Assembly: GCA_026417175.1 (NCBI GenBank)
Contig: JAOADT010000012.1
Span: 1-62,300 of the forward strand
Direction of reading: 5' to 3'
Length of the DNA: 62,300 nucleotides
Origin: Deltaproteobacteria bacterium
GTDB taxonomy: Bacteria > Desulfobacterota > Syntrophorhabdia > Syntrophorhabdales > JANXAF01
Below the pieces are notes generated by a model. The model worked only from the letters and a program-made list of their open reading frames with translations, had not been told where the DNA came from and ran no database searches. Each line of letters begins with the position of its first letter. Positions within the stretch are counted from its first letter, which is position 1. This document shows positions 14,327 to 28,876 of this stretch, piece by piece. The position numbers and the translations under genes are program-made.

Positions 14327-15559
14327 TTAATGGCCTTTCATCATGAAAAATAGAGAATCAACCGCCTTTCGTGCGAAGGACAATTCACTTATGTTCGCGT
14401 CCACTTCCTCAATCTCAATACCCTTTTTTAGTCTCGACTTAAGCGCCGAAGCAAAAACTTGAGGTGCTTCCTTATCGAAAAATTCGTTATCCTCCAGATC
14501 TATTTCTGAAAAACCTCTCATGGGGATAAGAACCTTAACCGGACCTTTTGCCTTACTCAGTCTTTCAGCGATTATATCCGCAAATAGTATCATTTCCTCT
14601 TTTTCCATTCTTACACAAAAACGTATGTCATGATAGTACACTTTTCTCCCTTTGAGCTTCTCAGGCATAGGATAATGAGGTGAAAAGACCGCATTATGAA
14701 GACCTCCTGGTGCAAGGACAACAGGTACACCCTTAGAACATTCAATGTCGAGCCTCGTTTCCCCAGCGCCCCTGCAATATCCTCCAAAAATGTCATCTGC
14801 GATTTCATGAAGAGTAAGGTCGAGTACTCCCAATATTAGACTCTCACTTACCATCTGCTCCATGGCTAGTCCGCCCGTCCCATTTGCATGAAAGCATATA
14901 AGTTCGTAGCCCCGTTCATTCACCAGGGGCTCTATGTGGGCTGCGCATAAAGAGTTTATACCGCACGTAGTGAGAGCTACGAGCGGTTTTTCAGGGGAAA
15001 AACCGATTCTACCTGTACCATTTTACAGATGGCAGAAGTGGCTTTGCTAAGGATAGATCTTGTGAAGCTTTTTGAGTCCAGCAAGTCTGCCACACTATGA
15101 AACATCAAAGTATCTTTTACACCCACGTATTCTCTCACATCCCTTGAGGCTACAGTAGATACCATAACTTTCGGAAATCCGTAAGGCAATCCTCTCATTA
15201 TATAGGTAGCAATAGAAGTGCCAGTTCCCGATTATACCTTGAATTTTTCCTTGGCCCAGAAGACTTTTGGCAATCGATAAAGCGCCTTTTTGCATGATTT
15301 CAACACAGAAAAGGCCTCCTTTTTTTTAGTATGTGAGGTAAAGTAAATCCCGCCGACTTAGCGACTTCATCATTACTTATATCAGGAATGGTAATTGGTT
15401 TACCCAGCCCTACGTCCATGAGGTTCAATAAAAGATGTTTTCTCTCAGCATCCTCCTTTATGAATTTGCTTCTCTCCCTTTTGTATCAAAAGTTGCCACA
15501 ATGAGTACCGTCTTTTTATGGCCAAAATCTTTTTTATTTTTCCCTCTGGTTAGATCCAT
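14327..15559 (-). pseudogene. Tm-1-like ATP-binding (UPF0261) protein, frameshifted
   Basis: The family is normally ~400 aa. The remnant starts at ATG 15559, overlapping the end of the isomerase gene, and reads TVLIVATFDTKGREA, the usual N-terminus, before a frameshift at ~15465-15475. A second frame continues to a stop at 15302. A third begins at ~15290 (SLLGQGKIQGIIG) and is lost near 15225. A fourth encodes GLPYGFPKVMVSTVASRDV and is lost near 15015. The C-terminal half (LICFHANGTGGLAMEQM onward) is intact. At least four lesions make a functional protein very unlikely. It was the last gene of the carboxylase operon. Confidence 0.85.
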
Positions 15560-16596
15560 TCTCTAACTTGACCCTTGATTAAAACCCTCTTTTTTCTTAA
15601 ATCGCTGAGATTCCTCGAGCCTGTGAGAAACATCGCAATTTTTAGCTCGTTGAAAAAGATTTCCAGACCGTCTATTACCTTATCAGTACCTACTTGAGCC
15701 CAAAGAAGAAGTGGTCTAGCCATACCCACAAGATCTGCTCCAAGTGCTATAGCTTTTGCTGCATCAAGACCTGTTCTTATACCCCCACTCCCTATTATTG
15801 GAAGCCCAGAGGTTTTTGCTTCAATGATAGATATAGGAGTGGGTATACCCCAGTCAGAGAATATCCGACACAATCTTTCGTGTCGCAAATTATTCCTCAA
15901 CTTTGCCCTTTTCAGTTCTATAAGAGCCATGCTGGTTCCCCCTTTACCAGCCACATCTAAGGCGCTTACCCCGAGATCCTTTAACTTCATCGCAATTTCT
16001 CTTGATATACCACACCCGGTCTCTTTGACTATTACAGGCACCGAAAGAAATTTGACAAGGTTTTCTATTGCAGAGAGACGATCTTTTGCAAAAGGTTCAC
16101 CCTCTATCATGAGGGCTTCTTGGAGAAAGTTTAAGTGCACAACAAGGCCATCTGCACCTATGGATTCAACCATTCTTTTTATCTTTTCAAAATTTTGCTT
16201 GTTTATTTGGGGGACACCAATATTGGCAAATAGAGGAATCTCCGGTGCTATATCTCTTGCAATCCTGTATGTATGCAGATAAGCTTCGTTTTCGAAAAGA
16301 ACCCTTCCACTTCCTAATTGCATTCCTACAGAGAAGTGTTTTGCCACCTCAGCAAGAACTCTGTTTATTTTTTCAGCTCTTTTACAACCACCAGTGAGGG
16401 CGGAAAGAATAAAAGGATACTTTAATTTCCATCCCAAAAACGAGACTGAAAGATCAATCTCATCAATATCAATTTCAGGTAGGCAGGTATGTATCAGTTC
16501 TACGTCTTGCCAAAAGGAAATTTTGTTTGATTCAACCTCATCTGAGAGAGCGACCTCTAAGTGTTCAACTTTTCTCTGAATTGTTTCATCACTCAT
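15550..16596 (-). CDS. fni: Type 2 isopentenyl-diphosphate isomerase (FMN-dependent)
   Basis: A 348-residue FMN- and NADPH-dependent enzyme that interconverts IPP and DMAPP. The signatures are clear: MQLGSGRVLF, LVVHLNFLQEALMIEG, PVIVKETGCGIS, LDVAGKGGTSMAL and IGSGGIRTGLDAAKAIALG in order. The ATG at 16596 overlaps the end of ubiX by 8 nt; a longer in-frame start lies inside ubiX and is less likely. Its tight coupling to ubiX suggests it supplies the dimethylallyl donor for prenylated FMN. A general isoprenoid role is also possible. Confidence 0.92.
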   Translation of the reverse strand: MSDETIQRKVEHLEVALSDEVESNKISFWQDVELIHTCLPEIDIDEIDLSVSFLGWKLKYPFILSALTGGCKRAEKINRVLAEVAKHFSVGMQLGSGRVLFENEAYLHTYRIARDIAPEIPLFANIGVPQINKQNFEKIKRMVESIGADGLVVHLNFLQEALMIEGEPFAKDRLSAIENLVKFLSVPVIVKETGCGISREIAMKLKDLGVSALDVAGKGGTSMALIELKRAKLRNNLRHERLCRIFSDWGIPTPISIIEAKTSGLPIIGSGGIRTGLDAAKAIALGADLVGMARPLLLWAQVGTDKVIDGLEIFFNELKIAMFLTGSRNLSDLRKKRVLIKGQVREWI

Positions 16597-17170
16597 TAAA
16601 GTTGTTACCCCATCTCTCAAACAGATGGGCATCTACACCAAAGAGGTCCAGAATTTTGCCTATAGTTTGCGATATTATATCATCTATGGACTTTGGACTG
16701 TGATAAAATGAGGGAACTGGGGGCATGACTATGCCACCCATCCGCGTAACTTTAAGCATTAGTTCCAAGTGACCTTCGTGGAGAGGTGTTTCCCGAACTA
16801 CTAATACCAATCTCCTTCTTTCTTTCAATGTCACGTCAGCAGCTCTAACAAGAAGATTGTAATTAAAGGAATTTGCAATAGCCGAGAGTGTCTTAATAGT
16901 GCAAGGGATAACAACCATCCCGTCCGTAATGCATGAGCCGCTTGCAATAGGCGCGGTAAGATCATCTATATCGTAGACCTTGGCAGCCAGTTTTTTTATG
17001 TCTTCCGGTTTATAGCTCGTCTCAATCTCTATATTCTTTAATCCCGCTTCAGTGATCACCAGGTGGATTTCTACATTCTTTTTGTGCATGGTCTCAAGCA
17101 TTTTCACGCCGTAAATTACCCCAGTTGCTCCCGTTATTCCGAGAATGATCTTTTTCTTATTGCGCGGCAT
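16589..17170 (-). CDS. ubiX: Flavin prenyltransferase UbiX
   Basis: A 193-residue flavoprotein that attaches a dimethylallyl group to FMN, making the prenylated FMN cofactor used by UbiD enzymes. ILGITGATGVIYGVKML is the N-terminal FMN-binding loop (~9-25). IPCTIKTLSAIANSF and LVLVVRETPLHEGHL are conserved UbiX segments containing the phosphate-binding and catalytic residues. The C-terminal FYHSPKSIDD is also typical. It overlaps UbiD-C by 14 nt and the isomerase by 8 nt, so all three are likely translated together. Confidence 0.95.
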   Translation of the reverse strand: MPRNKKKIILGITGATGVIYGVKMLETMHKKNVEIHLVITEAGLKNIEIETSYKPEDIKKLAAKVYDIDDLTAPIASGSCITDGMVVIPCTIKTLSAIANSFNYNLLVRAADVTLKERRRLVLVVRETPLHEGHLELMLKVTRMGGIVMPPVPSFYHSPKSIDDIISQTIGKILDLFGVDAHLFERWGNNFNE

Positions 17171-18500
17171 ACTTTTTTATCACCTTCATAACTCTATTTT
17201 TGTCGCCCGGAGCAATTTGTGCTCTTTCTTCCAAGTTCTTGCCGTACGTTGTTGCATTTATACCAATCTTTGTTACACCTTGTCCATCCATGGCTTCAGG
17301 GTCTATAGGCTGTCCTTGCATAGAACGAAGAAGAATGAGATCATCTTTTGCAAAACACCTTGTCACAATTGCCCATTCCAAATCCTTTAGATCATTGGCG
17401 TCAATATCAGTATCTACCACAATAGCCTTTTTTATCATTGGAAAAGAAAGAACAAAATGCAAGAGATTATTTATTTTAAACCTTTCAGTTGGAGTTGTAG
17501 TTATAATCACCGAAGAACCGAATGTTCTCTCTAAGAAGATCACTTCCTCAACAAACGGAAAAAGTTTCTTTACGTCCCTCTCCACATGGGCTCTGCTTAC
17601 GAAGGTTAAATACATGTCGGCCTCAGGACTTGTAGGAAGTAAGGCATGATAAATGGGGTTTTTCCTAAAAGATATTTTTCTTATGTGAACTGTAGGTGTC
17701 TCTTCAATTGTCATATAATAACCGCTTATTTCTCCGAGGGGTCCATCTTTTCTCTTTTCTTCTATATGAACTTCTCCTTCAAGTAAAAATTCTGTACCGG
17801 CGGGGACGTCTATAGGAGAATCAAAAGATCTCATTACTTTAACACTTCTACCCTTAATTGCACCTGCAACTTCAATTTTGTCTACGTCGTTTTGTACTTT
17901 AAGAGCCATCGAGAGAAAGAGTAAGGGGTCAACCCCCAAAGAGATAGAAATAGGCATGTTTTTTTTCAGATTCCTATACTTTTTAAGTATATCCGCCAAT
18001 GGCGGGTTAATCAAAGAGATGCCGAATCGGTTTTTACCTCTATACTCCATCCGATGGATGCCTCTTCCAACAACTTTCGTTTCAGGGTCCATACTAGAGA
18101 CCAAAGCAGTCGTAATGTAAGGGGCGGAATCCTTTTTGTAATGTTTTAAAATTGGGAGGAAATTCAGAAGGTCATCGTTTTCTTTCACATTTATCGAGGA
18201 ATAGCCTTTCTCTTTTTTTATTAACGTCTTCTTTATAAGCTTTCCGGCTCTTTGCACAAATGCGAAATAAGGATCTTTTTCACCCTCAAAAAGATAGGAA
18301 AAAACTTTTTGGGATGGAACTAAATTTGAAATCACTCTTACGTTGTAGCCTTCCACGTGTTGGAAAAAGAGGGTTTTGTTTTTAATTAACAGCTTCTCTA
18401 TAATCTCAGGTAAGTCTTCTCTCCTTACATGATCTGGAATTGAAATTAAAAGATCCTTCTTAACAAGAAGCTCAATATAATCCCTAAGGGACTCTATCAT
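17157..18500 (-). CDS. UbiD-family (de)carboxylase, UbiD-C
   Basis: A 447-residue member of the prenyl-FMN-dependent UbiD family, the third and most divergent UbiD in this operon. The Arg of the prenyl-FMN site is in GRGIHRMEYRG (near 155-165). The acidic catalytic motif reads KDGPLGEISGYY, so the first Glu of the usual EGPFGE is Asp. The C-terminal region ends with a KIGINATTYGKN-like strand. It begins 7 nt after the small gamma-like subunit, with a GAGGAAG site. It may be a further carboxylase subunit or a separate hydroxybenzoate decarboxylase. Confidence 0.88.
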   Translation of the reverse strand: MIESLRDYIELLVKKDLLISIPDHVRREDLPEIIEKLLIKNKTLFFQHVEGYNVRVISNLVPSQKVFSYLFEGEKDPYFAFVQRAGKLIKKTLIKKEKGYSSINVKENDDLLNFLPILKHYKKDSAPYITTALVSSMDPETKVVGRGIHRMEYRGKNRFGISLINPPLADILKKYRNLKKNMPISISLGVDPLLFLSMALKVQNDVDKIEVAGAIKGRSVKVMRSFDSPIDVPAGTEFLLEGEVHIEEKRKDGPLGEISGYYMTIEETPTVHIRKISFRKNPIYHALLPTSPEADMYLTFVSRAHVERDVKKLFPFVEEVIFLERTFGSSVIITTTPTERFKINNLLHFVLSFPMIKKAIVVDTDIDANDLKDLEWAIVTRCFAKDDLILLRSMQGQPIDPEAMDGQGVTKIGINATTYGKNLEERAQIAPGDKNRVMKVIKKYAAQ

Positions 18501-18507
18501 ATCTTCC

Positions 18508-18756
18508 TCACGGAAAAATTTTTATTTCCTCCAATATTTGAATGGAACAGGGTTTATCAACTAGCTGTCCTCTTCCTAGCCTTACCAAGAGTGTATCTGG
18601 GTACTTATCAGGATCTTTAGATATCCTAAATCGTGCATATATACCTTTGTACTTCATTCTGCCGGGAGTTAGATCCCTTATAATCCCAGTTATCTCCTCA
18701 TCTTCCGTAAGTTCCTCAAAATTTTTGCTTATGAACGTATCAAAGACTTTTCTCAT
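18508..18756 (-). CDS. Small subunit resembling phenylphosphate carboxylase gamma
   Basis: An 82-residue soluble protein of about 9.5 kDa. It has mixed charge, with the central segment GIIRDLTPGRMKYKGIYAR and the C-terminal LLVRLGRGQLVDKP. Size and position between UbiD genes match the ~10 kDa gamma subunit of Thauera phenylphosphate carboxylase. That comparison is from memory of the gene cluster, not from an alignment. An earlier in-frame ATG at 18783 exists inside UbiD-B, but GAGGAGG before ATG 18756 is the stronger start. Confidence 0.65.
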   Translation of the reverse strand: MRKVFDTFISKNFEELTEDEEITGIIRDLTPGRMKYKGIYARFRISKDPDKYPDTLLVRLGRGQLVDKPCSIQILEEIKIFP

Positions 18757-18766
18757 TTTTTCCTCC

Positions 18767-20212
18767 TCATTCTTTAAAACCATACTCCTTCCAATTTTTT
18801 AATACCTTCTCTTGGACTTCCCTAGGATATACTTCCCTGAAGCTAACCATCGTGGGTACCAATGCTTTTGGCCAATCGAGTGGGAAGGTACAGTCAAGAA
18901 TAACCTTTGGTGCTTTCTGAGAAAAACGTTCCTCGGGACTTGCAAAAGGATTTAAAGGTGTACCTGCTCCGAAGGGCATTAGTATAGTACCCCGTACAGG
19001 GTGCCACTTTGTGCAAATCGCGTGGATTACCTCTTCAACGTTGTAAATATCGGTTTTATCATCCACTACTACGACTATATGAAACCATGCTGCAGCTTTA
19101 CTACCCAAAACTAGTGAGGCAACTTGTTGAGCTATCCCAGTATATGCTGGTTTGACACCAATGACAAGCAAATGGTGAGTCGACTCTGGCCACATATAAA
19201 CGCCAGTTATAGGTAACCCTTGACTTTTTAAAAGTAGCTCCATATCCATGGCGAGAGTGAAAGATCTGAGCAGCTGTCCTTCATCTACAGGAACTCCCAT
19301 GTTAGAGACGGTCATAATTGCATTCTTCCTCATTGTTATGCACTTTACCCTATATACATTTCTTTTGTCTCTCGGGCTAGTTCTATAACCTGTGTATTCT
19401 CCAAAAGGTGCCTCTTCCAGTCTCACATGAGGAAGAACTTCACCTTCGATAATAATCTCTGCCGTTGCTGGAACGTAAAGGTCACAGGTTTCACATTTAA
19501 CGAGTTTTACAGGCTCACCCATTAATTGTCCAGCGAATTCTGCCTCTGGCAATGGGGTAGGTGCAAGACTCGCAAGGGCAGATATGGGATCAGGTCCAAT
19601 CACAGTGGCGAATGGCATAGGTTTCCCTTTTTGCTCATACTTTCCATAGAAAATCCTTCCCATGTCAGAAAAGGGTAGTATAGGGCCCACCATTGTCTTT
19701 TCATCGAAAATCATCTGTCTATACATTCCCCAGTTGACAAAGCCGCTTTCCTCATCTTTTGCCACAACAAAGTGCCAAGTTCCAATGTATCTTCCCCCAT
19801 CTCCATCATGTACCATCGGTGCAGGAAGATCAAAGAGATTTACTTGATCTCCGTCTATTATAACTTCTTTGCAACGCGCATCATTTTTAGGAATGATTTC
19901 TGGTTTAAATACCGCACTCTGTGTTCTTTTTCTCCATTCCTCGACAATACCAGAAACTGGGGTGTCAGGAGGAAGGCCAAGTACTATTGCCAATCTTCTC
20001 CAGGTTGCAATTGGGGCTCCAAATGCGCCAAAACCAGGGTAATCTTTTATCTTATGAAAATAAGGGGCTGGACCTTTTTTTTCACATGTTCTCCGAACTA
20101 TTGCCCCTAATTCTAAGTCCCAATCGACCTCAATTGATACATCAACCAGATCTCCTGTCTTTCTCAAAGCCTCAATATAATCCCTATTGTCGATGAAATA
20201 TCTGTAAGCCAT
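18767..20212 (-). CDS. UbiD-family carboxylase subunit, UbiD-B
   Basis: A 481-residue UbiD-family protein (~54 kDa). The prenyl-FMN-site Arg lies in FVNWGMYRQMIFDE (~158-171). The catalytic Glu pair is in LEEAPFGEYTGYR (~273-285). MTVSNMGVPVDEGQ and VVVVDDKTDIYNVEEVIH are further family segments. It is probably the alpha or beta subunit of a phenylphosphate-type carboxylase that adds CO2 para to a phenolic oxygen. A GGGGG site precedes ATG 20212. It is paired with UbiD-A around two HAD genes, as expected for a heteromeric complex. Confidence 0.9.
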   Translation of the reverse strand: MAYRYFIDNRDYIEALRKTGDLVDVSIEVDWDLELGAIVRRTCEKKGPAPYFHKIKDYPGFGAFGAPIATWRRLAIVLGLPPDTPVSGIVEEWRKRTQSAVFKPEIIPKNDARCKEVIIDGDQVNLFDLPAPMVHDGDGGRYIGTWHFVVAKDEESGFVNWGMYRQMIFDEKTMVGPILPFSDMGRIFYGKYEQKGKPMPFATVIGPDPISALASLAPTPLPEAEFAGQLMGEPVKLVKCETCDLYVPATAEIIIEGEVLPHVRLEEAPFGEYTGYRTSPRDKRNVYRVKCITMRKNAIMTVSNMGVPVDEGQLLRSFTLAMDMELLLKSQGLPITGVYMWPESTHHLLVIGVKPAYTGIAQQVASLVLGSKAAAWFHIVVVVDDKTDIYNVEEVIHAICTKWHPVRGTILMPFGAGTPLNPFASPEERFSQKAPKVILDCTFPLDWPKALVPTMVSFREVYPREVQEKVLKNWKEYGFKE

Positions 20213-20236: not shown

Positions 20237-20791
20237 TTACAAAGTAAAACGGCTTAAAATTTCACCCCATTTGCCCTGTGCCCTTAATATAAATTCGGCA
20301 ACCTCTCGAACCACACCCTGACCCCCCTTTGCCTCCGTGACGAAATCGGCTATTTCTCTGGCTTCTTTGGAGGCATCCTGGGGCGCAACAGAAAATCCAG
20401 CACGTCTCATCATCCCTAAATCGATCATTTCATCTCCTATGTAACACATCTCCTCATCCCTAAACCCGTATTTTTGTTGCATTTCGGTAGTCAGGGCCAT
20501 TTTTTGCGAGCTTCCCCATAAGAATTCTTCCGGTACCCCATATATCTTTGATACAGCTTGGTCCGCTCGTGATATTTTGCTTGTTAAAAACGCAGTGCGT
20601 AGTCCTGCTTCATGTAGCAACTTAAAGCCTATCCTATCTCTTAAAGAGAATTTTTCGGACTTTATTCCGTCTGGCGTGTAACAGAGAGTGTTGTCTGTTA
20701 AAACGCCGTGGATATCAATGACCAAAAATGTAATCTTTTTTGCCTTTTCATAAGTATTCTCTTTAACTTTAGCACTTGCTTTTATTTTCAT
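20237..20791 (-). CDS. KdsC-like HAD protein HAD-2 (phenylphosphate carboxylase delta-like)
   Basis: A 184-residue C0-type HAD protein. Motif I reads VIDIHGVLTDN, so the nucleophilic Asp (26) is kept but the usual second Asp (28) is His. Motif II Thr is in AFLTSKIS, motif III Lys in SSQKMALT, and motif IV CYIGDEMIDLGMM is intact. Thauera phenylphosphate carboxylase has an 18-kDa HAD subunit needed for phenylphosphate turnover, and this is the best local candidate. AAGGAGG before ATG 20791 decides the start over an upstream Met inside HAD-1. Confidence 0.85.
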   Translation of the reverse strand: MKIKASAKVKENTYEKAKKITFLVIDIHGVLTDNTLCYTPDGIKSEKFSLRDRIGFKLLHEAGLRTAFLTSKISRADQAVSKIYGVPEEFLWGSSQKMALTTEMQQKYGFRDEEMCYIGDEMIDLGMMRRAGFSVAPQDASKEAREIADFVTEAKGGQGVVREVAEFILRAQGKWGEILSRFTL

Positions 20792-20802
20792 ATGTTCCTC
20801 CT

Positions 20803-21366
20803 TCACTTGTAGCCCATCTTTGTGACTTTTTCTACCCATTCATCCCATAGACCTTTTGATCTTAATACGAACTCACATACTTCTCTCATAGCACCTCTCC
20901 CTCCGGGAGAAGAAGTAACGTAAACTGCCAGATCTTTTACCTCGTCTGCCGCATCGGAGGTGGCTACAGGAAACCCGACCTTTTTCATAAATGGTATGTC
21001 CATGATTTCGTAACCTAAATATCCTACTTCTTGATCTTCCACACCGAATCCCTTTTTAATTTCCTCAAACTTTGCCATTTTTTCTAAAGGTGTAACTTTG
21101 TAATAGTATTTGTCCAGTTTTAACTCTTTCGCCCTATGTAGTCCTTCCTCGTCTATGGATGTGCTGTCTAAAAAGACGGGAATTATACCGTTCGCTGAAA
21201 GGGACAAATCTCCAAATCCGTCCATGTGCCAGAATTCGTATCTTCTTTGGCCTTCTTGATCGCAGTATACCGAATCAGTGGTAAGAACTCCGTGGATATC
21301 GTGCACAAATATTTTTATTTTTTTTGCTCTTTCCTGAGCTTCTTTTAAGTTTTTTTCTTCCTTCAT
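20803..21366 (-). CDS. KdsC-like HAD protein HAD-1, degenerate active site
   Basis: A 187-residue paralogue of HAD-2, immediately upstream in the operon. Motif I is FVHDIHGVLTTD: Asp23 is kept and the second Asp is His25. Motif IV reads GYLGYEIMDIPFM, so the first magnesium-binding Asp is Tyr. The C-terminal GGRGAMREVCEFVLRSKGLW is typical of KdsC-like proteins. It could be a structural partner of HAD-2, a regulatory subunit, or an enzyme with changed chemistry. A GGGGAGG site precedes ATG 21366. Confidence 0.83.
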   Translation of the reverse strand: MKEEKNLKEAQERAKKIKIFVHDIHGVLTTDSVYCDQEGQRRYEFWHMDGFGDLSLSANGIIPVFLDSTSIDEEGLHRAKELKLDKYYYKVTPLEKMAKFEEIKKGFGVEDQEVGYLGYEIMDIPFMKKVGFPVATSDAADEVKDLAVYVTSSPGGRGAMREVCEFVLRSKGLWDEWVEKVTKMGYK

Positions 21367-21377
21367 ACTAACCTCCC

Positions 21378-22805
21378 CTAAATATCACCGAGGCCAAGTT
21401 CTTGCCAGCGAGCTCGTATATTTTTTACCACCTCTTCATTAAGCTTCACCTCAACTGGCTTCTGTGCCCACTCATAAGGAATTGTGGCATTTATGAGAAT
21501 TCTGGGTGTTATAAACTTGTTATCTTCCGGTCCTAAAGAGGGATCAAGCGGTGTAGATCTTCCCCTCTGTATTATCTGTGTTCCTCTAAGAGGATTATAA
21601 CGGACACCAAGGGCCCACCAGACCCGATCAAGATCATCGGCTTGGATGTCGTCATCAACTACCACAACACCTTTTACTCCGTACATCCCGGTATTCGAAG
21701 CGATCACTGCATGGGCTACCTGTTCTGCATGACCGGGGTACATCTGCCTTATAGATAAAATGACCCAAAACCTTCCTGCAGCCTCAGGGAGAGTGTAAAC
21801 GGACTGGATACCCGGAATTTTCATGCTCTCTAGCTCAGTCCATAAAGCGGCATTTCTAGCAAATGCATACAACATATGCTGGTCCCCCACTGGTCTTCCA
21901 ACAGTGGTGGCAACTAAAATAGGATTGTTTCGATGATATATACGCTTTATCTCGATTACTGGTTTAGGAAGTGGTTTGAAAAGTTCCTCGGTGTAGTAAC
22001 CCGTGTATTCTCCAAAGGGACCCTCTTCCTTTAGAATAGAGGGATCTATCTCTCCTTCAATTGCAATCTCCGCATCAGAAGGAAAAGGAAGTCCAGTTAA
22101 TTCACCTCTGACAAGATTTAAGGGCTCACCCCTAAGAGTACTTACTGCATCGTATGCACTTTTTATACCTGGAAGTGTAGCTGCACTTGCTATCATGAGT
22201 AAAGGGTCTCCTCCCATTACAACACACACAGGCATTTTCTTTTTTGCTTTTGCATACCTTTGGAGTATTCTATCTGTAGTTTTTCCTTTTAGGATCTGAA
22301 CTCCGAGATGTTTTTCATCGTGTACTCCCATTCGGAAAGTACCGAGGTTTACCCGGCCACTTTCAGGATCCTGACTGACCATATAGATAGCGGTTCCAAA
22401 GTACCTGTGACCATCCTGCTCATAGTATCTAGGTACTGGAAAGCTAAGGATGCTGGCTTTGTCTCCATCTATGACATTTTCAAAAATCGGTCCGCTTCGC
22501 GTTTCTTTTGATTCAACAAGGCTCTTCGATTCGGTTAAGGTTTTCATCCATTCTCTTGTGAGTTCCACAAGGGAGGAGGTGCCTGATTTTCCCATTATGT
22601 CGGAAAGTCTCCGGGCGGTGGCATAAACACCCGTTATTACCGGACTTGAATATTCTTTTATATTTTCGAAAAGTAAAGCCGGACCGTCCTTTTCTTCCAC
22701 GAGTTTTGCTATGTGTGAAAGTTCAAGATTCCAGTCAACTTGAGCTTTAACTCTTTTTAGTTGGCCTTCATTTTCCCATTTTGCTATAAAGTATCTTAGA
22801 TCCAT
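21378..22805 (-). CDS. UbiD-family carboxylase subunit, UbiD-A
   Basis: A 475-residue UbiD-family protein and first gene of the carboxylase operon. The prenyl-FMN-site Arg is in VNLGTFRMGVHDEKH and the catalytic Glu pair in KEEGPFGEYTGYY. VATTVGRPVGDQHMLYAF and KGVVVVDDDIQADDLDRVWW are later family segments. It is likely the partner of UbiD-B. Start 22805 (MDLRYFIAKW) has an AAAGGGGGGAC site; an upstream Met at 22832 lies on the -10 box and is less likely. A TTGACA/GATAAT promoter and a LysR-type site lie upstream. Confidence 0.9.
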   Translation of the reverse strand: MDLRYFIAKWENEGQLKRVKAQVDWNLELSHIAKLVEEKDGPALLFENIKEYSSPVITGVYATARRLSDIMGKSGTSSLVELTREWMKTLTESKSLVESKETRSGPIFENVIDGDKASILSFPVPRYYEQDGHRYFGTAIYMVSQDPESGRVNLGTFRMGVHDEKHLGVQILKGKTTDRILQRYAKAKKKMPVCVVMGGDPLLMIASAATLPGIKSAYDAVSTLRGEPLNLVRGELTGLPFPSDAEIAIEGEIDPSILKEEGPFGEYTGYYTEELFKPLPKPVIEIKRIYHRNNPILVATTVGRPVGDQHMLYAFARNAALWTELESMKIPGIQSVYTLPEAAGRFWVILSIRQMYPGHAEQVAHAVIASNTGMYGVKGVVVVDDDIQADDLDRVWWALGVRYNPLRGTQIIQRGRSTPLDPSLGPEDNKFITPRILINATIPYEWAQKPVEVKLNEEVVKNIRARWQELGLGDI

Positions 22806-22831
22806 TATGTCCCCCCTTTGTTTTTGATTCA

Positions 22832-22860
22832 ATTATCAGCGGAAAAATATGGGTTGTCAA
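22832..22860 (-). promoter_or_regulatory. Carboxylase operon promoter
   Basis: On the minus strand, TTGACA (22860-22855) and GATAAT (22837-22832) are separated by 17 bp. The expected transcription start is near 22825, 20 nt before the UbiD-A start. The LysR-type dyad at 22881-22895 is centred at about -63 from it. Confidence 0.75.
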
Positions 22861-22863
22861 TTC

Positions 22864-22895
22864 AGTTATCCTTATGATATATAAGTAAAGCTTAT
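22864..22895. promoter_or_regulatory. LysR-type binding site A (carboxylase operon / lysR)
   Basis: The dyad ATAAG-N5-CTTAT at 22881-22895 fits the T-N11-A rule. AGTTATCCT at 22864-22872 (AGGATAACT on the minus strand) lies 8 nt away. The dyad overlaps the lysR start codon (22894), consistent with autorepression. A closely matching composite site is present at 23806-23831. Confidence 0.75.
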
Positions 22896-23799
22896 GCATT
22901 CTTATTCGCTTAACTCGCTAATAGTTTTTTACACTGTCGCTAAACTTGGAAGTTTTTCAAAAGCCGCTGAGACCCTTTTTATGACTCAGCCCGGAGTTTC
23001 AAACCATATAAAGCAACTGGAAGCACAAGTGGGTAGAAGACTAATCCTACGGGGGAAGAATGGGATTCACCTCACTGGAGAAGGTAAAATCGTTTTTAAA
23101 TACGCTGAAAGAATTGAAAGTTGCGCAGAGGAGTTGGATAGATTTATAAAGCATATACGAAAGGAAGAAACCCCGATCCTTAGAATCGCCACAACTACAG
23201 TCTATTCAAAGGTTTTCGTTCCTACGGTTCTTGGGAGTTTTGTGAAGAGTTATCCAAATGTTACCGTGAAATTGGATCTTGCAAACACAGAAGAGATGCT
23301 CGGCAAAGTCTTGAGAGAGGAAGTGGATGTTGCCATAGTGGCAAATCCTAGAAAATCGAAAAGGATCGAAGTTGTTCCCCTTGTGAGAGAAGAATTGGTT
23401 TTAATTACGGACAGAAAACATCCCCTTGCCAAATTGGATACTGTGTCCTTAAAGGAAGTCTCAAAATACCCGCTCATCATGAGAGAGGAGGGTTCCGCAA
23501 CAAGAAGTGTAGTTCTTCAAGCATTTGAATCTATGGGGATTAAACCATCAATAGTATTTGAAGTAAAAAGCACTGAATTCATAAAAGAATGGGTAATTGA
23601 GGGAAGAGGAATCTCTATACTTATAGAAAGAGCGATCTCTGAAGATGAACGGAAGCAAGTAAAAATTATAAAATTAATTGAGCCTTTATATCTTGAGGTC
23701 GCAGTCGTTTTTTTAAAGTCTAACAGAGTTAACCATGCTATTGAAAGATTCGTCAATCACATAGAAGAACTGAAATCCAAATCCCTCGTTTGCTCTTAA
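22894..23799 (+). CDS. LysR-family regulator of the carboxylation regulon
   Basis: A 301-residue LysR-type regulator. Residues ~4-63 form the winged helix-turn-helix (GSFSKAAETLFMTQPGVSNH). The remainder is the two-lobed effector domain (LRIATTTVYSKVF, then VLREEVDVAIVANP). It lies between the divergent carboxylase operon and the co-directional activation operon. The same composite site occurs on both sides of it, so it probably controls both operons and itself in response to an aromatic effector. The start codon has no Shine-Dalgarno and lies near the predicted promoter. Confidence 0.9.
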   Translation: MHSYSLNSLIVFYTVAKLGSFSKAAETLFMTQPGVSNHIKQLEAQVGRRLILRGKNGIHLTGEGKIVFKYAERIESCAEELDRFIKHIRKEETPILRIATTTVYSKVFVPTVLGSFVKSYPNVTVKLDLANTEEMLGKVLREEVDVAIVANPRKSKRIEVVPLVREELVLITDRKHPLAKLDTVSLKEVSKYPLIMREEGSATRSVVLQAFESMGIKPSIVFEVKSTEFIKEWVIEGRGISILIERAISEDERKQVKIIKLIEPLYLEVAVVFLKSNRVNHAIERFVNHIEELKSKSLVCS

Positions 23800-23901: not shown

Positions 23902-24486
23902 ATGGAACAAAAAAGTTGGGCACACAGTGGCCCGTGGGCGATCCAGTCCGTTGCGGTTTTGACTGCATGTGCTGGATTTGTATTTGCAGGTCTCGTACCT
24001 GAATCGACTGTTCCTCTGGTTATTGGGATTCTCTTTTCGTGTGTTATACCCCAGCTTGTAGGAGGTATCATCCTGTTTAGAAGGGGAGAAGTTCTTTTAG
24101 CGACTATCTGCTGTCTTTTCGGAACGGTAATTACAATGGGTGCAGCATTCACGATGTATACGATGGTTTTTATGGCACCGAAGCCAGGTGCTTTTACCCC
24201 ACAACTACTCGGGGTTTTTTGGTTTGTTCTTTTCATAATAACAGAGGTATTTGCAATTGGTTTCGGTAGGGCAAGCTGGTTTTTACTTTTGGGTATTGCC
24301 GAAGTTGGGGCTTCATTTCTTTTTTTGAGTATCAATGCTTGGACAGGGTCGCAAGTGGCAGGAGCGATAGCAGGTTGGCTACTAATTTTCTTCTCTGCTT
24401 TCTGTATTTACGCTTCCTCAGCCCTTCTTCTTGCAGAACATTTCGAAAGACCCATTTTACCTATGGGAAAGCCAATATTTAAGTAA
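23902..24486 (+). CDS. Six-helix membrane protein, acetate-transporter (GPR1/FUN34/YaaH)-like
   Basis: A 194-residue protein with about six transmembrane helices and short loops. The layout IPQLVGGIILFRRGEVLLATICCLFGT resembles the second and third helices of SatP-type acetate channels, and the last helix ends SALLLAEHFE. The usual NPAPLGL motif near the N-terminus is not obvious; SGPWAIQSVAV is in its place. It may export acetate made from aromatic degradation or admit a weak acid. It is the first gene after LysR site B, with a GGGGGGTC ribosome-binding site. Confidence 0.55.
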   Translation: MEQKSWAHSGPWAIQSVAVLTACAGFVFAGLVPESTVPLVIGILFSCVIPQLVGGIILFRRGEVLLATICCLFGTVITMGAAFTMYTMVFMAPKPGAFTPQLLGVFWFVLFIITEVFAIGFGRASWFLLLGIAEVGASFLFLSINAWTGSQVAGAIAGWLLIFFSAFCIYASSALLLAEHFERPILPMGKPIFK

Positions 24487-24500
24487 AGGAGGGTTATTCC

Positions 24501-26354
24501 ATGATACACACAACAAGATTTCCAGATCCGCATGAGTATCTGAAAGATATACCTGAAGAACTTTCAGGTTGGGAAGATATGTATCCTCCACATTTCCTTT
24601 TTGGGAGGGAGAGGGAAGATTGGGAAAAGAGGCAGTTTTGGTATTTGGACAAGATCCACGCTCCAGATCCTATGCCACCGCTTGATCATATATTCCAGCA
24701 AGCGTGGCAAATATCCCTTTCCCAACATAATACGAGAGTTTTCTGTATACCGCCAGCTCAAGGAGTAGCCCACAGGATAGTTGGGTGCTACCAGTATATA
24801 TGTGCTGTAGAGCCACCTCCTGATGAAGTTATTGCAGAAAAGGCGGAATTTTTTAAAGAAAGGGCGCATTATCCGGTAGAGCACTACGACGAATTGTGGG
24901 ATGACTGGCTAACGAGGTTTAAGGAACTAGGGGAAGAGTTAAGGAACATAAAAGTTCCCGAAATTTTACCCAAGTATCTCTCAAAGGAAGAAGTTTATCC
25001 GAACTACTATAGGGGCTACACGCAAGCTTACGAACTAATAGAAGCATTCGATAGAATGGTAAATCTATTATACAAAGGTTGGCAGTACCACTTTAACCTT
25101 CTTAACCTCTGCTATCTATACTATCTAATGTTCTTTGATCTCGCAAGAAGGCTATTCCCTGGGATAAGTGAAAGTGCCATCGGAAAGATGATTGCAGGCG
25201 TTGAGGCTTACATGTTTAAGCCGGAAGAAGAACTTTGCAGACTCGCAAGAAGGGCTTATGCAGAACCAAGGGTTGCGGAGATTTTAAAAAAGGATAGGCC
25301 TGCGAAGGAAAAAATTGAAGAGCTTAACAAATTTGAAGTAGGCCAGAGATGGCTTGACGCACTGGAAGAATCAATGAATCCTTGGTTTTATGTGAGCTGT
25401 GCCAGCGGATGGTACCATTATGAGGGAAGCTGGATAAATAACTTGGACATACCGTTTGGCTACCTTAAAGGATACCTGGAAAGACTAGATAGGGGTGAAA
25501 CTATAGAGAGATCGCTTTCTGAAATTGCGGAGTCAAGGGAGAAGTTGGTTAATGAATATAAAAAACTTATAAAATCTGACGAAGATAAAGTGAGTTTTGA
25601 AAATGCTTACCGGGACTGTCTAACTTTGTATAGGTTCGCAGAAGGTCATATATTCTGGGTAGAAAATTGGCTACATACGATATGGTTCGACAAGGTAAGA
25701 GAGATTGGGAGGACTCTCGTGAAAGCTGGTGTGTTTAGAAATCAGGATGAGATATTCATGTTCAATAGGTTAGAGATTCCAACCATAATTGAGGATGCAG
25801 TAACAGCATGGGCTCTAGGTCATGGGGTACCTACGCTTAAATGGTCCGAGAAAGCAGAAAAGAGGAGAAGTATTCTTGAAGCAGCGTCAAAGTGGTCACC
25901 TTCGCCTGCCCTTGGTGTTCCGCCTACGGAGGTAGCAGAACCATTTACTGTGATGCTTTGGGGCATAACGACAGAAAAAGTTCAGGAATGGCTAAAAGGC
26001 GTATCGATTAAACCTGAAGATGTAATTGAGATAAAAGGCTTTGCATCATCTAAAGGACAGGCAGAAGGACCGGCTAGGGTGGTAAAAAAGATAGATGAGA
26101 TAGTGACCCTTGAAGAAGGCGAAATACTTGTCTGTCCTTCTACAAACCCTTCCTGGGCACCTGTTTTCACAAAGATAAAGGCAGCTGTTACGGATATTGG
26201 AGGGGTTACATGCCATGCGGCCATAGTTGCAAGAGAATACGGGCTTCCTTCCGTGACCGGGACAGGAATCGCTACGCAGGTAATAAAAACTGGAGATATT
26301 ATAAAAGTGGATGGAGACACAGGACTAGTGACTATTGTTAAAAGGGCCATATAA
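24501..26354 (+). CDS. ppsA: Phenylphosphate synthase-like subunit A (PEP-synthase mobile domain)
   Basis: A 617-residue (~71 kDa) protein. Its C-terminal ~110 residues are the PEP-utilising phosphohistidine domain (ILVCPSTNPSWAPVF, then GGVTCHAAIVAREYGLPS), with catalytic His572. The long N-terminal part is mostly helical and Trp/Tyr-rich, lacking the classic PEP-synthase ATP-grasp. Thauera phenylphosphate synthase protein 1 has about this size, with a phosphorylated His near residue 569. The proposed role is transfer of a phosphoryl group to phenol. AAGGAGGG precedes ATG 24501. The symbol denotes the phenol enzyme, not E. coli PEP synthase. Confidence 0.8.
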   Translation: MIHTTRFPDPHEYLKDIPEELSGWEDMYPPHFLFGREREDWEKRQFWYLDKIHAPDPMPPLDHIFQQAWQISLSQHNTRVFCIPPAQGVAHRIVGCYQYICAVEPPPDEVIAEKAEFFKERAHYPVEHYDELWDDWLTRFKELGEELRNIKVPEILPKYLSKEEVYPNYYRGYTQAYELIEAFDRMVNLLYKGWQYHFNLLNLCYLYYLMFFDLARRLFPGISESAIGKMIAGVEAYMFKPEEELCRLARRAYAEPRVAEILKKDRPAKEKIEELNKFEVGQRWLDALEESMNPWFYVSCASGWYHYEGSWINNLDIPFGYLKGYLERLDRGETIERSLSEIAESREKLVNEYKKLIKSDEDKVSFENAYRDCLTLYRFAEGHIFWVENWLHTIWFDKVREIGRTLVKAGVFRNQDEIFMFNRLEIPTIIEDAVTAWALGHGVPTLKWSEKAEKRRSILEAASKWSPSPALGVPPTEVAEPFTVMLWGITTEKVQEWLKGVSIKPEDVIEIKGFASSKGQAEGPARVVKKIDEIVTLEEGEILVCPSTNPSWAPVFTKIKAAVTDIGGVTCHAAIVAREYGLPSVTGTGIATQVIKTGDIIKVDGDTGLVTIVKRAI

Positions 26355-26365
26355 ATTGGGGATAT

Positions 26366-26388
26366 GGGGGCCTGACAAAAAGGCCCCC
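26366..26388 (+). other. GC-rich intercistronic hairpin between ppsA and ppsB
   Basis: GGGGGCCT (26366-26373) pairs perfectly with AGGCCCCC (26381-26388) around a 7-nt loop. No T-run follows, so it is not a classical terminator. It sits 18 nt before the ppsB start and may set mRNA stability or translation. Confidence 0.7.
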
Positions 26389-26406
26389 AGAAAATGGGGG
26401 GTCAAA

Positions 26407-27468
26407 ATGGGAAAGTTCACGAGGACCTTCAAAGAAATAAAAAAAGATATGTTTCAGGAATGCGGGGGTAAAGCCTCGCATCTTGGTGAATTAACAAGTA
26501 TGGGATTAAATGTCCCTTACGGTTTTTGTCTCGTAGCGGACGCTTTTTTTCATCATTTAAGGGAAAACAACTTGGAAAATGAAGTTTTTGCAATTGCAAA
26601 AACCATAAATTACGATGATATTAGAGACTTGGATCAAAAGACAGAGAAAATCCGTTCTCTCATAGAGAGTGCCCCAATTCCCCGAGAAATAGAGGAAGAG
26701 GTAGTTGAGAATTACAATTTATTAGGTAAAAATGAGCCATTTGTGGCTGTTCGCTCTTCGGTCGCGATTAAGGACAGTGAGATTTCGTCTTTTCCTGGTC
26801 TCATGGATACGTATCACTACATCAAAGGTGCCAAAACCATAATGGACTATGTCAAGAAATGCTGGGCATCGGTTTTTACCTCAAGAGCGACCGCTGCAAG
26901 GTTTAAAAAAGGGATAGAGCATGAAAGGGCAATAATAGCGCCTATAATTCAGCGGATGGTGAACGCTAGATGTGCCGGAGTCATGTTTACGCTGAATCCT
27001 GTAAATGGGGACATATCTAAGATCGTTATAGAGGGAGCTTGGGGCATAGGCGAGGGAGTCGTCTCGGGTAATATAACCCCTGACAGATTCGTTGTAGACA
27101 AAGTAATCTTGGAGGTAAGTGAGAGAACCATATCATGCAAACAATTACAATACGTTTACGATCCTGACCAGAGAAAACCTGTTTACAAAGAGGTGTCTAT
27201 AGAAAATCAAAAGAGGTGTTGTCTTGAAGAAAGAGAAATCATGGAGCTTGTAAGACTGGCAAAAGTGATCGAAGACCATTACGGTACTCCAATGGATATA
27301 GAATGGGCTATTGATAGAGATTTTGAGTTTCCGGAAAATGTTTTCATCCTTCAAGCAAGAGCTGAATCAGTCTGGAGTAAAAAGAAGACTGAACCAGTCG
27401 TCGGAAAAAAAACAGGTTATGAACTTATCATGGAGAGAGCCATGAAAACAATAAAACTGGCTCAGTAG
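26407..27468 (+). CDS. ppsB: Phenylphosphate synthase-like subunit B (PEP-synthase ATP-grasp domain)
   Basis: A 353-residue (~40 kDa) protein equivalent to the N-terminal nucleotide-binding domain of PEP synthase. Visible elements are FQECGGKASHLGELTSMG (residues ~17-34), VAVRSSVAIKDSEISSFPG (~115-133), the segment around RCAGVMFTLNP (~194-204), and the metal/ATP region MDIEWAID and FILQARAE near 298-318. It likely transfers phosphate from ATP to His572 of subunit A. Its ~40-kDa size matches Thauera protein 2. Start 26407 follows a G-run; the upstream in-frame Met inside ppsA is less likely. Confidence 0.82.
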   Translation: MGKFTRTFKEIKKDMFQECGGKASHLGELTSMGLNVPYGFCLVADAFFHHLRENNLENEVFAIAKTINYDDIRDLDQKTEKIRSLIESAPIPREIEEEVVENYNLLGKNEPFVAVRSSVAIKDSEISSFPGLMDTYHYIKGAKTIMDYVKKCWASVFTSRATAARFKKGIEHERAIIAPIIQRMVNARCAGVMFTLNPVNGDISKIVIEGAWGIGEGVVSGNITPDRFVVDKVILEVSERTISCKQLQYVYDPDQRKPVYKEVSIENQKRCCLEEREIMELVRLAKVIEDHYGTPMDIEWAIDRDFEFPENVFILQARAESVWSKKKTEPVVGKKTGYELIMERAMKTIKLAQ

Positions 27469-27532: not shown

Positions 27533-27547
27533 AGTGTGGAGGTGAAT

Positions 27548-28876
27548 ATGGTGCAAAGAGACAGTATTTACTGGAATCCCATATTGGAAACCATGCCCAG
27601 GGAAAAGTTAAAGGAGTTGCAAATCAAAAAATTTAAAAGAATCTTTGAATGGGCCTACAATAACTCTCCATTTTACAGGAAGTTATACAAAGAGGCGGGA
27701 ATAGAACCAGGGGATATAAAGTCTTACGAAGATATAAAGAAAGTACCTAAGATAGATAAGGCTATGCTTAGGGATGTTCAGACGAGAGAACCGTTCCCTT
27801 ACGGCGATATTCTTGCAGTTCCCTTGAAGGACATTGTTGTATTTCGGCAGACTAGTGGTACCACAGGTACGCCTGTATATCAGGCGGACACTTGGCAGGA
27901 CTGGGAATGGTGGTCCGAGTGTTGGGCTTATATACTTTATGCTCAGGGTTACAGAGATACGGATAGGTTTTTTCTCCCATTCGGTTATAACATATTTGTG
28001 GCCTTTTGGGCAGCTCATTATGCTGCAGAGAAAATAGGTTGTGAGGTCATACCAGGAGGTGTTCTGGATACGGAGGCACGGATTTTAAAGATGCAGGAAC
28101 TAAAATGTACTGCCTTTGCGGCGACCCCGACGTATGTTTTAGGAATGGCGGACACAGCGAGAAAAATGGGTATTGATCCAAGATCAATAGGAATAAAGAA
28201 GATCACGTGTGCGGGAGAACCTGGTGCGAGCATACCTACAACTAAACAGAGGATGGAAGAGGCTTGGGGTGCAAAGGTTTATGATCATATAGGGGCAACT
28301 GAAATAGGGGCATGGAGCTATATGTGTACGGAGCAGAAAGGGCTTCATGTGAACGAGGCATTTTTCTTGGTAGAAATAGAAGATACAGAGACAGGAGAGA
28401 TAATCGAAGAACCCATGAAGCAAGGAAAAATGATCGTAACCGCTCTTGATAGGATTGGAAAGCCATGCATCCGTTTTGACTCAAAGGATGTGATTAGGTG
28501 GGCCGATTACGACTGCCCGTGCGGTAGAACATTCAGGATGATAGATGGTGGTGTCATTGGAAGAGCAGATGACATTACAAAAGTCAAGGGTGTTCTTCTA
28601 GCTCCTACTGCGATCGAAGAAGTAGTCAGAAGTTTCAAAGAACTGAGTGATGAATATGAGGTCGTTGTGTCAAAGAAAGGTGACATTGACGACATTCTTC
28701 TTAAGATAGAAATATTGCCGGAGCATGAAGGGAAAAAAGAAGAGATTCTGTCACGACTTAAGGATCAACTCAGGGTAAAAACGAATCTCGGTTACCGAAT
28801 CGAGGTACATCCTTACGGTTCACTCCCACGGTACGATGTGAAAGCTAAGAGATTCAAAGATTTGAGAAAACATTAA
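27548..28876 (+). CDS. Aryl-CoA ligase, phenylacetate-CoA ligase (PaaK) family
   Basis: A 442-residue AMP- and CoA-forming ligase of the PaaK type. The ATP-binding loop is RQTSGTTGTPVYQA (near 99-112). YDHIGATEIGAWSY is the aromatic-acid and adenylate region. GRADDITKVKGVLLAP leads the C-terminal domain. Context suggests it converts a carboxylated product such as 4-hydroxybenzoate to its CoA thioester, but PaaK-like enzymes accept many aromatic acids. GGAGGTG before ATG 27548 fixes the start; a GTG at 27536 lies upstream of that site. Confidence 0.88.
   Translation: MVQRDSIYWNPILETMPREKLKELQIKKFKRIFEWAYNNSPFYRKLYKEAGIEPGDIKSYEDIKKVPKIDKAMLRDVQTREPFPYGDILAVPLKDIVVFRQTSGTTGTPVYQADTWQDWEWWSECWAYILYAQGYRDTDRFFLPFGYNIFVAFWAAHYAAEKIGCEVIPGGVLDTEARILKMQELKCTAFAATPTYVLGMADTARKMGIDPRSIGIKKITCAGEPGASIPTTKQRMEEAWGAKVYDHIGATEIGAWSYMCTEQKGLHVNEAFFLVEIEDTETGEIIEEPMKQGKMIVTALDRIGKPCIRFDSKDVIRWADYDCPCGRTFRMIDGGVIGRADDITKVKGVLLAPTAIEEVVRSFKELSDEYEVVVSKKGDIDDILLKIEILPEHEGKKEEILSRLKDQLRVKTNLGYRIEVHPYGSLPRYDVKAKRFKDLRKH

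Follow-up and report, generated by a model that had tools for sequence, protein, structure and literature searches.

Paired DxH-type HAD proteins in phenylphosphate carboxylase operons of Syntrophorhabdia and other Deltaproteobacteria lineages: a probable catalytic subunit and a probable non-catalytic partner

The HAD pair and its operon

The window, i.e. the whole stretch of 62,300 nucleotides of Deltaproteobacteria DNA that was analysed, carries a phenylphosphate carboxylase (ppc) operon in the order beta-HAD1-HAD2-alpha-gamma-UbiD-UbiX, in which two KdsC-like HAD genes are positioned between those encoding the beta and alpha subunits (Table 1). The pair is thus colocated with the genes for the other ppc subunits, alpha, beta and gamma, in an order that is conserved, and phenylphosphate synthase-like genes adjoin the operon here as in many relatives. 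Phenylphosphate carboxylase catalyses a biological Kolbe-Schmitt reaction, and the natural reading of the locus is a pathway leading from phenol, the presumed substrate, via phenylphosphate to 4-hydroxybenzoate and its CoA ester, in which the PaaK-like protein would be a candidate 4-hydroxybenzoate-CoA ligase. A gene for a type 2 isopentenyl-diphosphate isomerase (15550-16632, minus strand; TIGR02151 382.9 bits, cut-off 281.3) overlaps the end of the UbiX gene in the same operon, an arrangement also present in the sister genome G001 (locus L039), and its product may feed the dimethylallyl supply for prFMN. Additionally, a 194-aa protein without a Pfam match is encoded between the LysR-type regulator and PpsA-like genes (23902-24486, plus strand); similar proteins were found at loci L039, L083, L084 and L096.

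Table 1. Coordinates of the HAD pair and of neighbouring genes in the window
Feature	Coordinates	Strand	Details
UbiX flavin prenyltransferase, prFMN supply	16589..17170	-	TIGR00421 255.4 bits, cut-off 108.9
Third UbiD-family protein of operon	17157..18500	-	TIGR00148 257.9 bits, cut-off 244.85; conserved position
ppc gamma-like subunit	18508..18783	-	PF09662 53.1 bits, cut-off 25; TIGR02725 48.1, below cut-off 135.55
ppc alpha subunit, UbiD family	18767..20212	-	TIGR02723 632.5 bits, cut-off 564.6
HAD-2, KdsC-like HAD paralogue	20237..20839	-	ORF of 200 aa; motif I D42-x-H44, Thr86, Lys113, motif IV GD136E137xxD140
HAD-1, KdsC-like HAD paralogue	20803..21366	-	187 aa; motif I D23-x-H25, motif II position Asp67, Lys96, motif IV GY119E120xxD123
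ppc beta subunit, UbiD family	21378..22832	-	TIGR02724 631.9 bits, cut-off 468.95
LysR-type regulator	22894..23799	+	divergent from ppc operon; proximity conserved
PpsA-like phenylphosphate synthase-like protein	24501..26354	+	PEP-utiliser mobile domain
PpsB-like phenylphosphate synthase-like protein	26335..27468	+	PPDK N-terminal ATP-binding domain
PaaK-like aryl-CoA ligase	27536..28876	+	TIGR02155 252.9 bits, below cut-off 646.3

HAD-1 and HAD-2 share 37% identity. Motif I reads FVHDIHGVLTT in HAD-1 and FLVIDIHGVLTD in HAD-2, and motif IV reads GYLGYEIMDI and CYIGDEMIDL, respectively, which bears out the sequence-only reading that both proteins carry DIHG in motif I, with His in place of the general acid/base Asp, and that motif IV is GYE in HAD-1 and GDE in HAD-2. 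In HAD proteins the nucleophile is provided by the motif I Asp, and Mg2+ is coordinated by the first Asp of GDD in motif IV; we take metal binding by this motif IV Asp to be lost in HAD-1, an assignment made from KdsC. The nucleophile, the motif III Lys and the last motif IV Asp are present in both proteins alike, and the full set of nucleophile, Thr, Lys and GDExxD occurs in HAD-2 but not in HAD-1, where the motif II position is occupied by Asp in a part of the alignment carrying a one-residue insertion. On the basis of these motifs HAD-2 is probably the catalytic delta-like subunit and HAD-1 probably a non-catalytic delta-like partner, the latter being the most likely outcome of a missing metal ligand and an Asp at the motif II position. 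The listed start of the HAD-2 ORF is probably 16 codons too far upstream (20789-20839, minus strand): AGGAGG, a strong ribosome-binding site, precedes an ATG at 20791, 11 nt past the HAD-1 stop codon. This ATG is likely to be the true start, giving a protein of 184 aa, and with a start there overlap between the two genes is probably absent.

Structures predicted for the single chains display the KdsC-type capless HAD fold in both cases. The HAD-2 model (pLDDT 90) matched the KdsC structure 4um7 with an E value of 6e-18, TM scores of 0.79/0.91 and an rmsd of 1.7, and the HAD-1 model (pLDDT 83) matched the same entry with an E value of 2e-16, TM scores of 0.77/0.82 and an rmsd of 5.9, its flap (residues 27-45) being poorly determined. 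Both proteins fall below the KdsC equivalog cut-off (NF007019: 110.6 for HAD-2 and 94.9 for HAD-1, cut-off 208), and in the subfamily model TIGR01670 HAD-2 lies just above the cut-off of 106.95 (110) and HAD-1 below it (90). Against TIGR02726, the curated delta family, HAD-2 scored 126.7 and HAD-1 101 bits, both below the equivalog cut-off of 281.95.

Distribution, conservation and descent of the HAD component

The alpha subunit rather than the HADs was used as bait in genome scans, so that no selection was made for the motif. Alpha was above its cut-off in 10 of 41 genomes of the window's own order, and the fetched clusters of this order with an intact beta-alpha interval carry two HADs. A scan of named genomes with the same bait yielded 80 ppc loci, a few of which are contigs already included in the scan of the window's order. 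Three classes were distinguished. Class A loci carry a single HAD with DVDG and GDDxxD (39 distinct proteins) and belong mostly to Beta- and other Proteobacteria, including Aromatoleum and Azoarcus, together with one Chloroflexi and one Desulfuromonadales locus. Class B loci, from Bacillota, Actinomycetota and some Desulfobacterota/Myxococcota, also carry a single HAD, in this case with DVHG and GDExxD (18 proteins), and class C loci, found in this window, in Syntrophorhabdia and in other Deltaproteobacteria lineages, carry HAD-1 and HAD-2. The two HADs occupy the same position in every class C cluster not cut by contig ends, their genes being adjacent or nearly so in an operon that has a single gene each for alpha, beta and gamma. 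HAD-1 was searched for elsewhere in class A and B genomes and none was found.

A number of loci depart from this scheme. No HAD was seen at L082, L088, L089 and L126, which begin at a contig end. In Aromatoleum buckelii (L113) ppc alpha and beta genes are present with no HAD within 10 kb, and two delta-like HADs are encoded elsewhere in the genome. Furthermore, the related genomes G003 (C39:36565-37989) and G007 (C445:3841-5262, L052) contain second alpha-like UbiD genes (339-356 bits), each of which has one in-frame stop codon (TAA and TGA).

Motifs were tabulated for 114 proteins. DxH was found in 24/24 distinct HAD-1, 25/25 distinct HAD-2 and 18/18 class B proteins, and DxD in 39/39 class A delta proteins and in 8/8 KdsC proteins, as the earlier reading had expected for KdsC-like phosphatases. 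The loss of the first motif IV Asp, initially remarked in the window's HAD-1, extends to all 24 of the HAD-1 homologues, in which the residue is Cys (19), Ser (3) or Tyr (2); the nucleophile, motif II Thr, motif III Lys and GDExxD are retained in 25/25 HAD-2 sequences. His at the +2 position is paired with the motif IV Glu nearly always, the exception being one HAD-1 with Asp. Sequencing error, chance and recent decay were rejected as causes of the motif changes, as the motifs are fixed across many genomes.

The association of DxH with ppc genes was assessed with a DNA pattern for D[IV]HG-x-x-T, which gave 40 hits in 395 genomes of the phylum versus 3 with a reversed control. Among 30 fetched loci the pattern lay within a HAD gene in 19, every one of these 19 being flanked by ppc alpha and/or beta, and the remainder comprised one contig end beside a beta gene and 10 loci at which the pattern lay outside HAD genes. 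Since every recovered DxH HAD adjoins ppc genes, the DxH motif marks ppc loci within the genomes sampled here. Of the 395 genomes, 332 contain a delta/KdsC-like HAD of some kind. The window genome (G000, 96% complete) has no KdsC-like HAD beyond the pair, unlike most of the phylum, and many other members of its order likewise have none.

Across 27 class C clusters, each with alpha, beta and both HADs, the mean pairwise identity of HAD-1 (71.5%) was close to that of alpha (71.2%), above that of HAD-2 (67.2%) and below that of beta (77.5%), and about 70 positions, among them FWHMDGF and the tail MGYK, are invariant in 18 HAD-1 sequences. Judged by these alignments, HAD-1 is a maintained protein under strong purifying constraint and not a decaying copy. 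It displays the two features expected of a HAD pseudophosphatase, namely loss of a metal-ligand residue across orthologues and retention under selection.

In a HAD tree built without the trait columns KdsC was followed by class A (100/96) and then by the DxH clade (100/99), within which class B (94/52), HAD-1 (100/100) and HAD-2 (100/99) formed groups; a sister relationship of HAD-1 and HAD-2 was weak (84/27), with a warning from the program of long branches meeting. The alpha tree separated class A from the rest (100) and placed the Bacillota class B loci outside, with a second class B group unresolved within class C (84). Taken together, the HAD and alpha trees suggest that DxH most likely arose once, ahead of the duplication, and the placement of the second class B group inside class C in the alpha tree makes a single duplication likely rather than proven.

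Proposed roles of the two proteins and alternative explanations

We consider it reasonably probable that HAD-1 and HAD-2 represent a duplicated, subfunctionalised delta component, in which HAD-2 is catalytic and HAD-1 a non-turnover subunit, the two forming a hetero-oligomer on the UbiD core. The earlier suggestion of an active enzyme paired with a pseudoenzyme is thus retained as the best reading of the sequences, given that the motifs of HAD-2 are complete and that HAD-1 has lost its metal-ligand Asp yet is conserved like alpha. HAD-2 would bind Mg2+ and dephosphorylate phenylphosphate, with Asp42 attacking the phosphorus; as phenol/phenolate is a good leaving group, phenolate could depart without acid help. 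The retained motif set makes formation of an aspartyl-phosphate possible in HAD-2, with the usual acid/base missing, and the His at +2 together with the linked motif IV Asp-to-Glu change would retune, and probably slow, the hydrolysis step normally sped by Asp+2. HAD-1, itself without turnover, would pair with HAD-2, and the resulting KdsC-like hetero-oligomer would dock on the UbiD core and hand over phenolate for prFMN-dependent para-carboxylation to 4-hydroxybenzoate. KdsC is a homotetramer, and a HAD-1/HAD-2 hetero-oligomer is therefore the simplest arrangement. Asp+2 is the general acid/base in HAD phosphatases (PMC4081830), and in the D10N variant of beta-phosphoglucomutase (beta-PGM) the Asn is unable to protonate the leaving group (PMC11283535). 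By analogy, slower or gated hydrolysis is the likely effect of DxH.

A more elaborate form of this proposal, which we regard as doubtful, has the two proteins as obligate partners in a hetero-oligomer whose active site is composite, HAD-2 contributing the nucleophile and metal ligands and HAD-1 the flap, with DxH/GDE gating phenolate to the UbiD core. The catalytic residues Thr86 and Asp136 are retained in HAD-2 only and the flap His/Gly/Phe in HAD-1 only, and the flap motif His-x-Asp-Gly-Phe, carried by single-copy class B proteins, is lost in HAD-2. Across the columns conserved in class B, 31 are kept by both paralogues, 12 by HAD-1 only, 10 by HAD-2 only and 15 by neither, a split that is not above chance; complementary retention of class B residues was thus rejected as a general pattern, and only some flap and catalytic positions hint at it. 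If the composite-site reading were true, a phosphatase would have been turned into a gated substrate-delivery subunit that holds an aspartyl-phosphate and releases phenolate only to the UbiD core.

The residues common to both copies (nucleophile Asp, motif III Lys and last motif IV Asp) would also suit two active delta subunits serving different substrates, for example phenol versus a substituted phenol or an aniline-derived phosphoamidate, with the Cys, Ser or Tyr of HAD-1 belonging to another metal arrangement, and D. anilini is known to phosphorylate and carboxylate aniline as well as phenol (PMC7500099). However, near-adjacent genes in an operon with a single alpha, beta and gamma fit a joint module better, and the choice among Cys, Ser and Tyr is patternless, as expected after loss of a metal ligand; we therefore regard two separate activities as unlikely. 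We attach a similarly low probability to the proposal that both HADs are non-catalytic scaffold or regulatory proteins, the phosphate being lost on the UbiD core or the third UbiD protein of the operon, which has a homologue in Syntrophorhabdus, carboxylating unphosphorylated phenol. The absence of the general acid/base Asp from both proteins would agree with this, as would the speculation that Syntrophorhabdus PpcX/PpcY (UbiD/UbiX) carboxylate phenol directly (PMC5946492), but the nucleophile, Thr, Lys and GDExxD of 25/25 HAD-2 sequences would be needless in a pure scaffold, and the phenylphosphate synthase-like genes that accompany the operon here and in many relatives argue against it. A role of the pair as KdsC (KDO-8-phosphate phosphatase) or as another sugar phosphatase present in the operon by chance is very improbable: KdsC is the nearest solved fold and HAD-2 lies just above the TIGR01670 cut-off, but both proteins score below the KdsC equivalog cut-off, differ in DxD and GDD and remain linked to ppc clusters throughout the genomes sampled. 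A search of the window genome detected no other TIGR02726-like HAD, indicating that the pair is not a spare KdsC. A stray KdsC was accordingly rejected on the profile scores, the lack of a second TIGR02726-like HAD and the ppc linkage of DxH.

Comparison with known delta proteins, KdsC and beta-PGM

The class A proteins of Aromatoleum diolicum (367.5) and Azoarcus sp. Aa7 (364.3) exceed the TIGR02726 cut-off, and the scanned class B, HAD-1 and HAD-2 proteins lie below it (101-164). As these class A proteins are both above the cut-off and DxD, the curated delta is DxD. Neither HAD-1 (GYE) nor HAD-2 (GDE), both DxH, carries the DxD and GDDxxD of known delta; by position the pair appears to take the place of delta, yet it falls short of the curated family's cut-off and lacks its DxD/GDD. 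In T. aromatica, delta alone hydrolyses phenylphosphate only very slowly, and phenylphosphate carboxylation requires delta together with the alpha-beta-gamma core (PMC6114531). Since this delta, taken as DxD by its family and not by its own sequence, is already very slow alone, tight coupling is possible without DxH. The sequence-only reading had further proposed that DxH reflects chemistry suited to carboxylation-coupled turnover, and had named in advance the comparison with known delta. That comparison went against the proposal on both points that sequences can address, as the NCBIfam-assigned delta is DxD and single-copy, and relatives with one copy exist. The idea that carboxylation-coupled dephosphorylation generally needs DxH was thus rejected, and DxH and the duplication are best regarded as lineage elaborations rather than features that coupled carboxylation requires.

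Searches of the open-access literature found no description of paired HADs or of DxH in ppc clusters, an absence that, with this scope, is weak evidence; a comparison of the Syntrophorhabdus Pps-Ppc operon (PMC5946492) makes no mention of PpcD or a phosphatase in its main text. Three natural delta states would be available, i.e. a DxD single protein, a DxH single protein and a DxH catalytic-plus-degenerate pair, and their exchange on a UbiD core could reveal which residues control the coupling of phosphate removal to CO2 fixation. Furthermore, DxH together with GDE provides a simple signature of ppc delta-like genes in anaerobes, where such genes fall short of the curated model and might be annotated as KdsC.

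Like PpcD of Thauera, Aromatoleum and Azoarcus, the proteins described here are KdsC-like HADs encoded by the alpha and beta genes in the same operon, and HAD-2 shares the nucleophile, Thr, Lys and motif IV scaffold with PpcD. PpcD is, however, encoded by one gene and has DxD and GDDxxD, whereas the present component is encoded by two genes, with DxH in both and with GDE in HAD-2 and G[C/S/Y]E in HAD-1. KdsC (YrbI, KDO-8-phosphate phosphatase) resembles the pair in fold and length and is the best PDB match for both, but has DxD and GDDxxD; the pair falls in a separate clade (split 100/97), and within the sampled genomes proteins with DxH turned up nowhere but next to ppc genes. The beta-PGM D10N variant is a laboratory analogue in that the Asp+2 carboxylate is lost; there, Asn was engineered into a protein of a different HAD subfamily, whereas here the His is natural, invariant and linked to the Asp-to-Glu change in motif IV.
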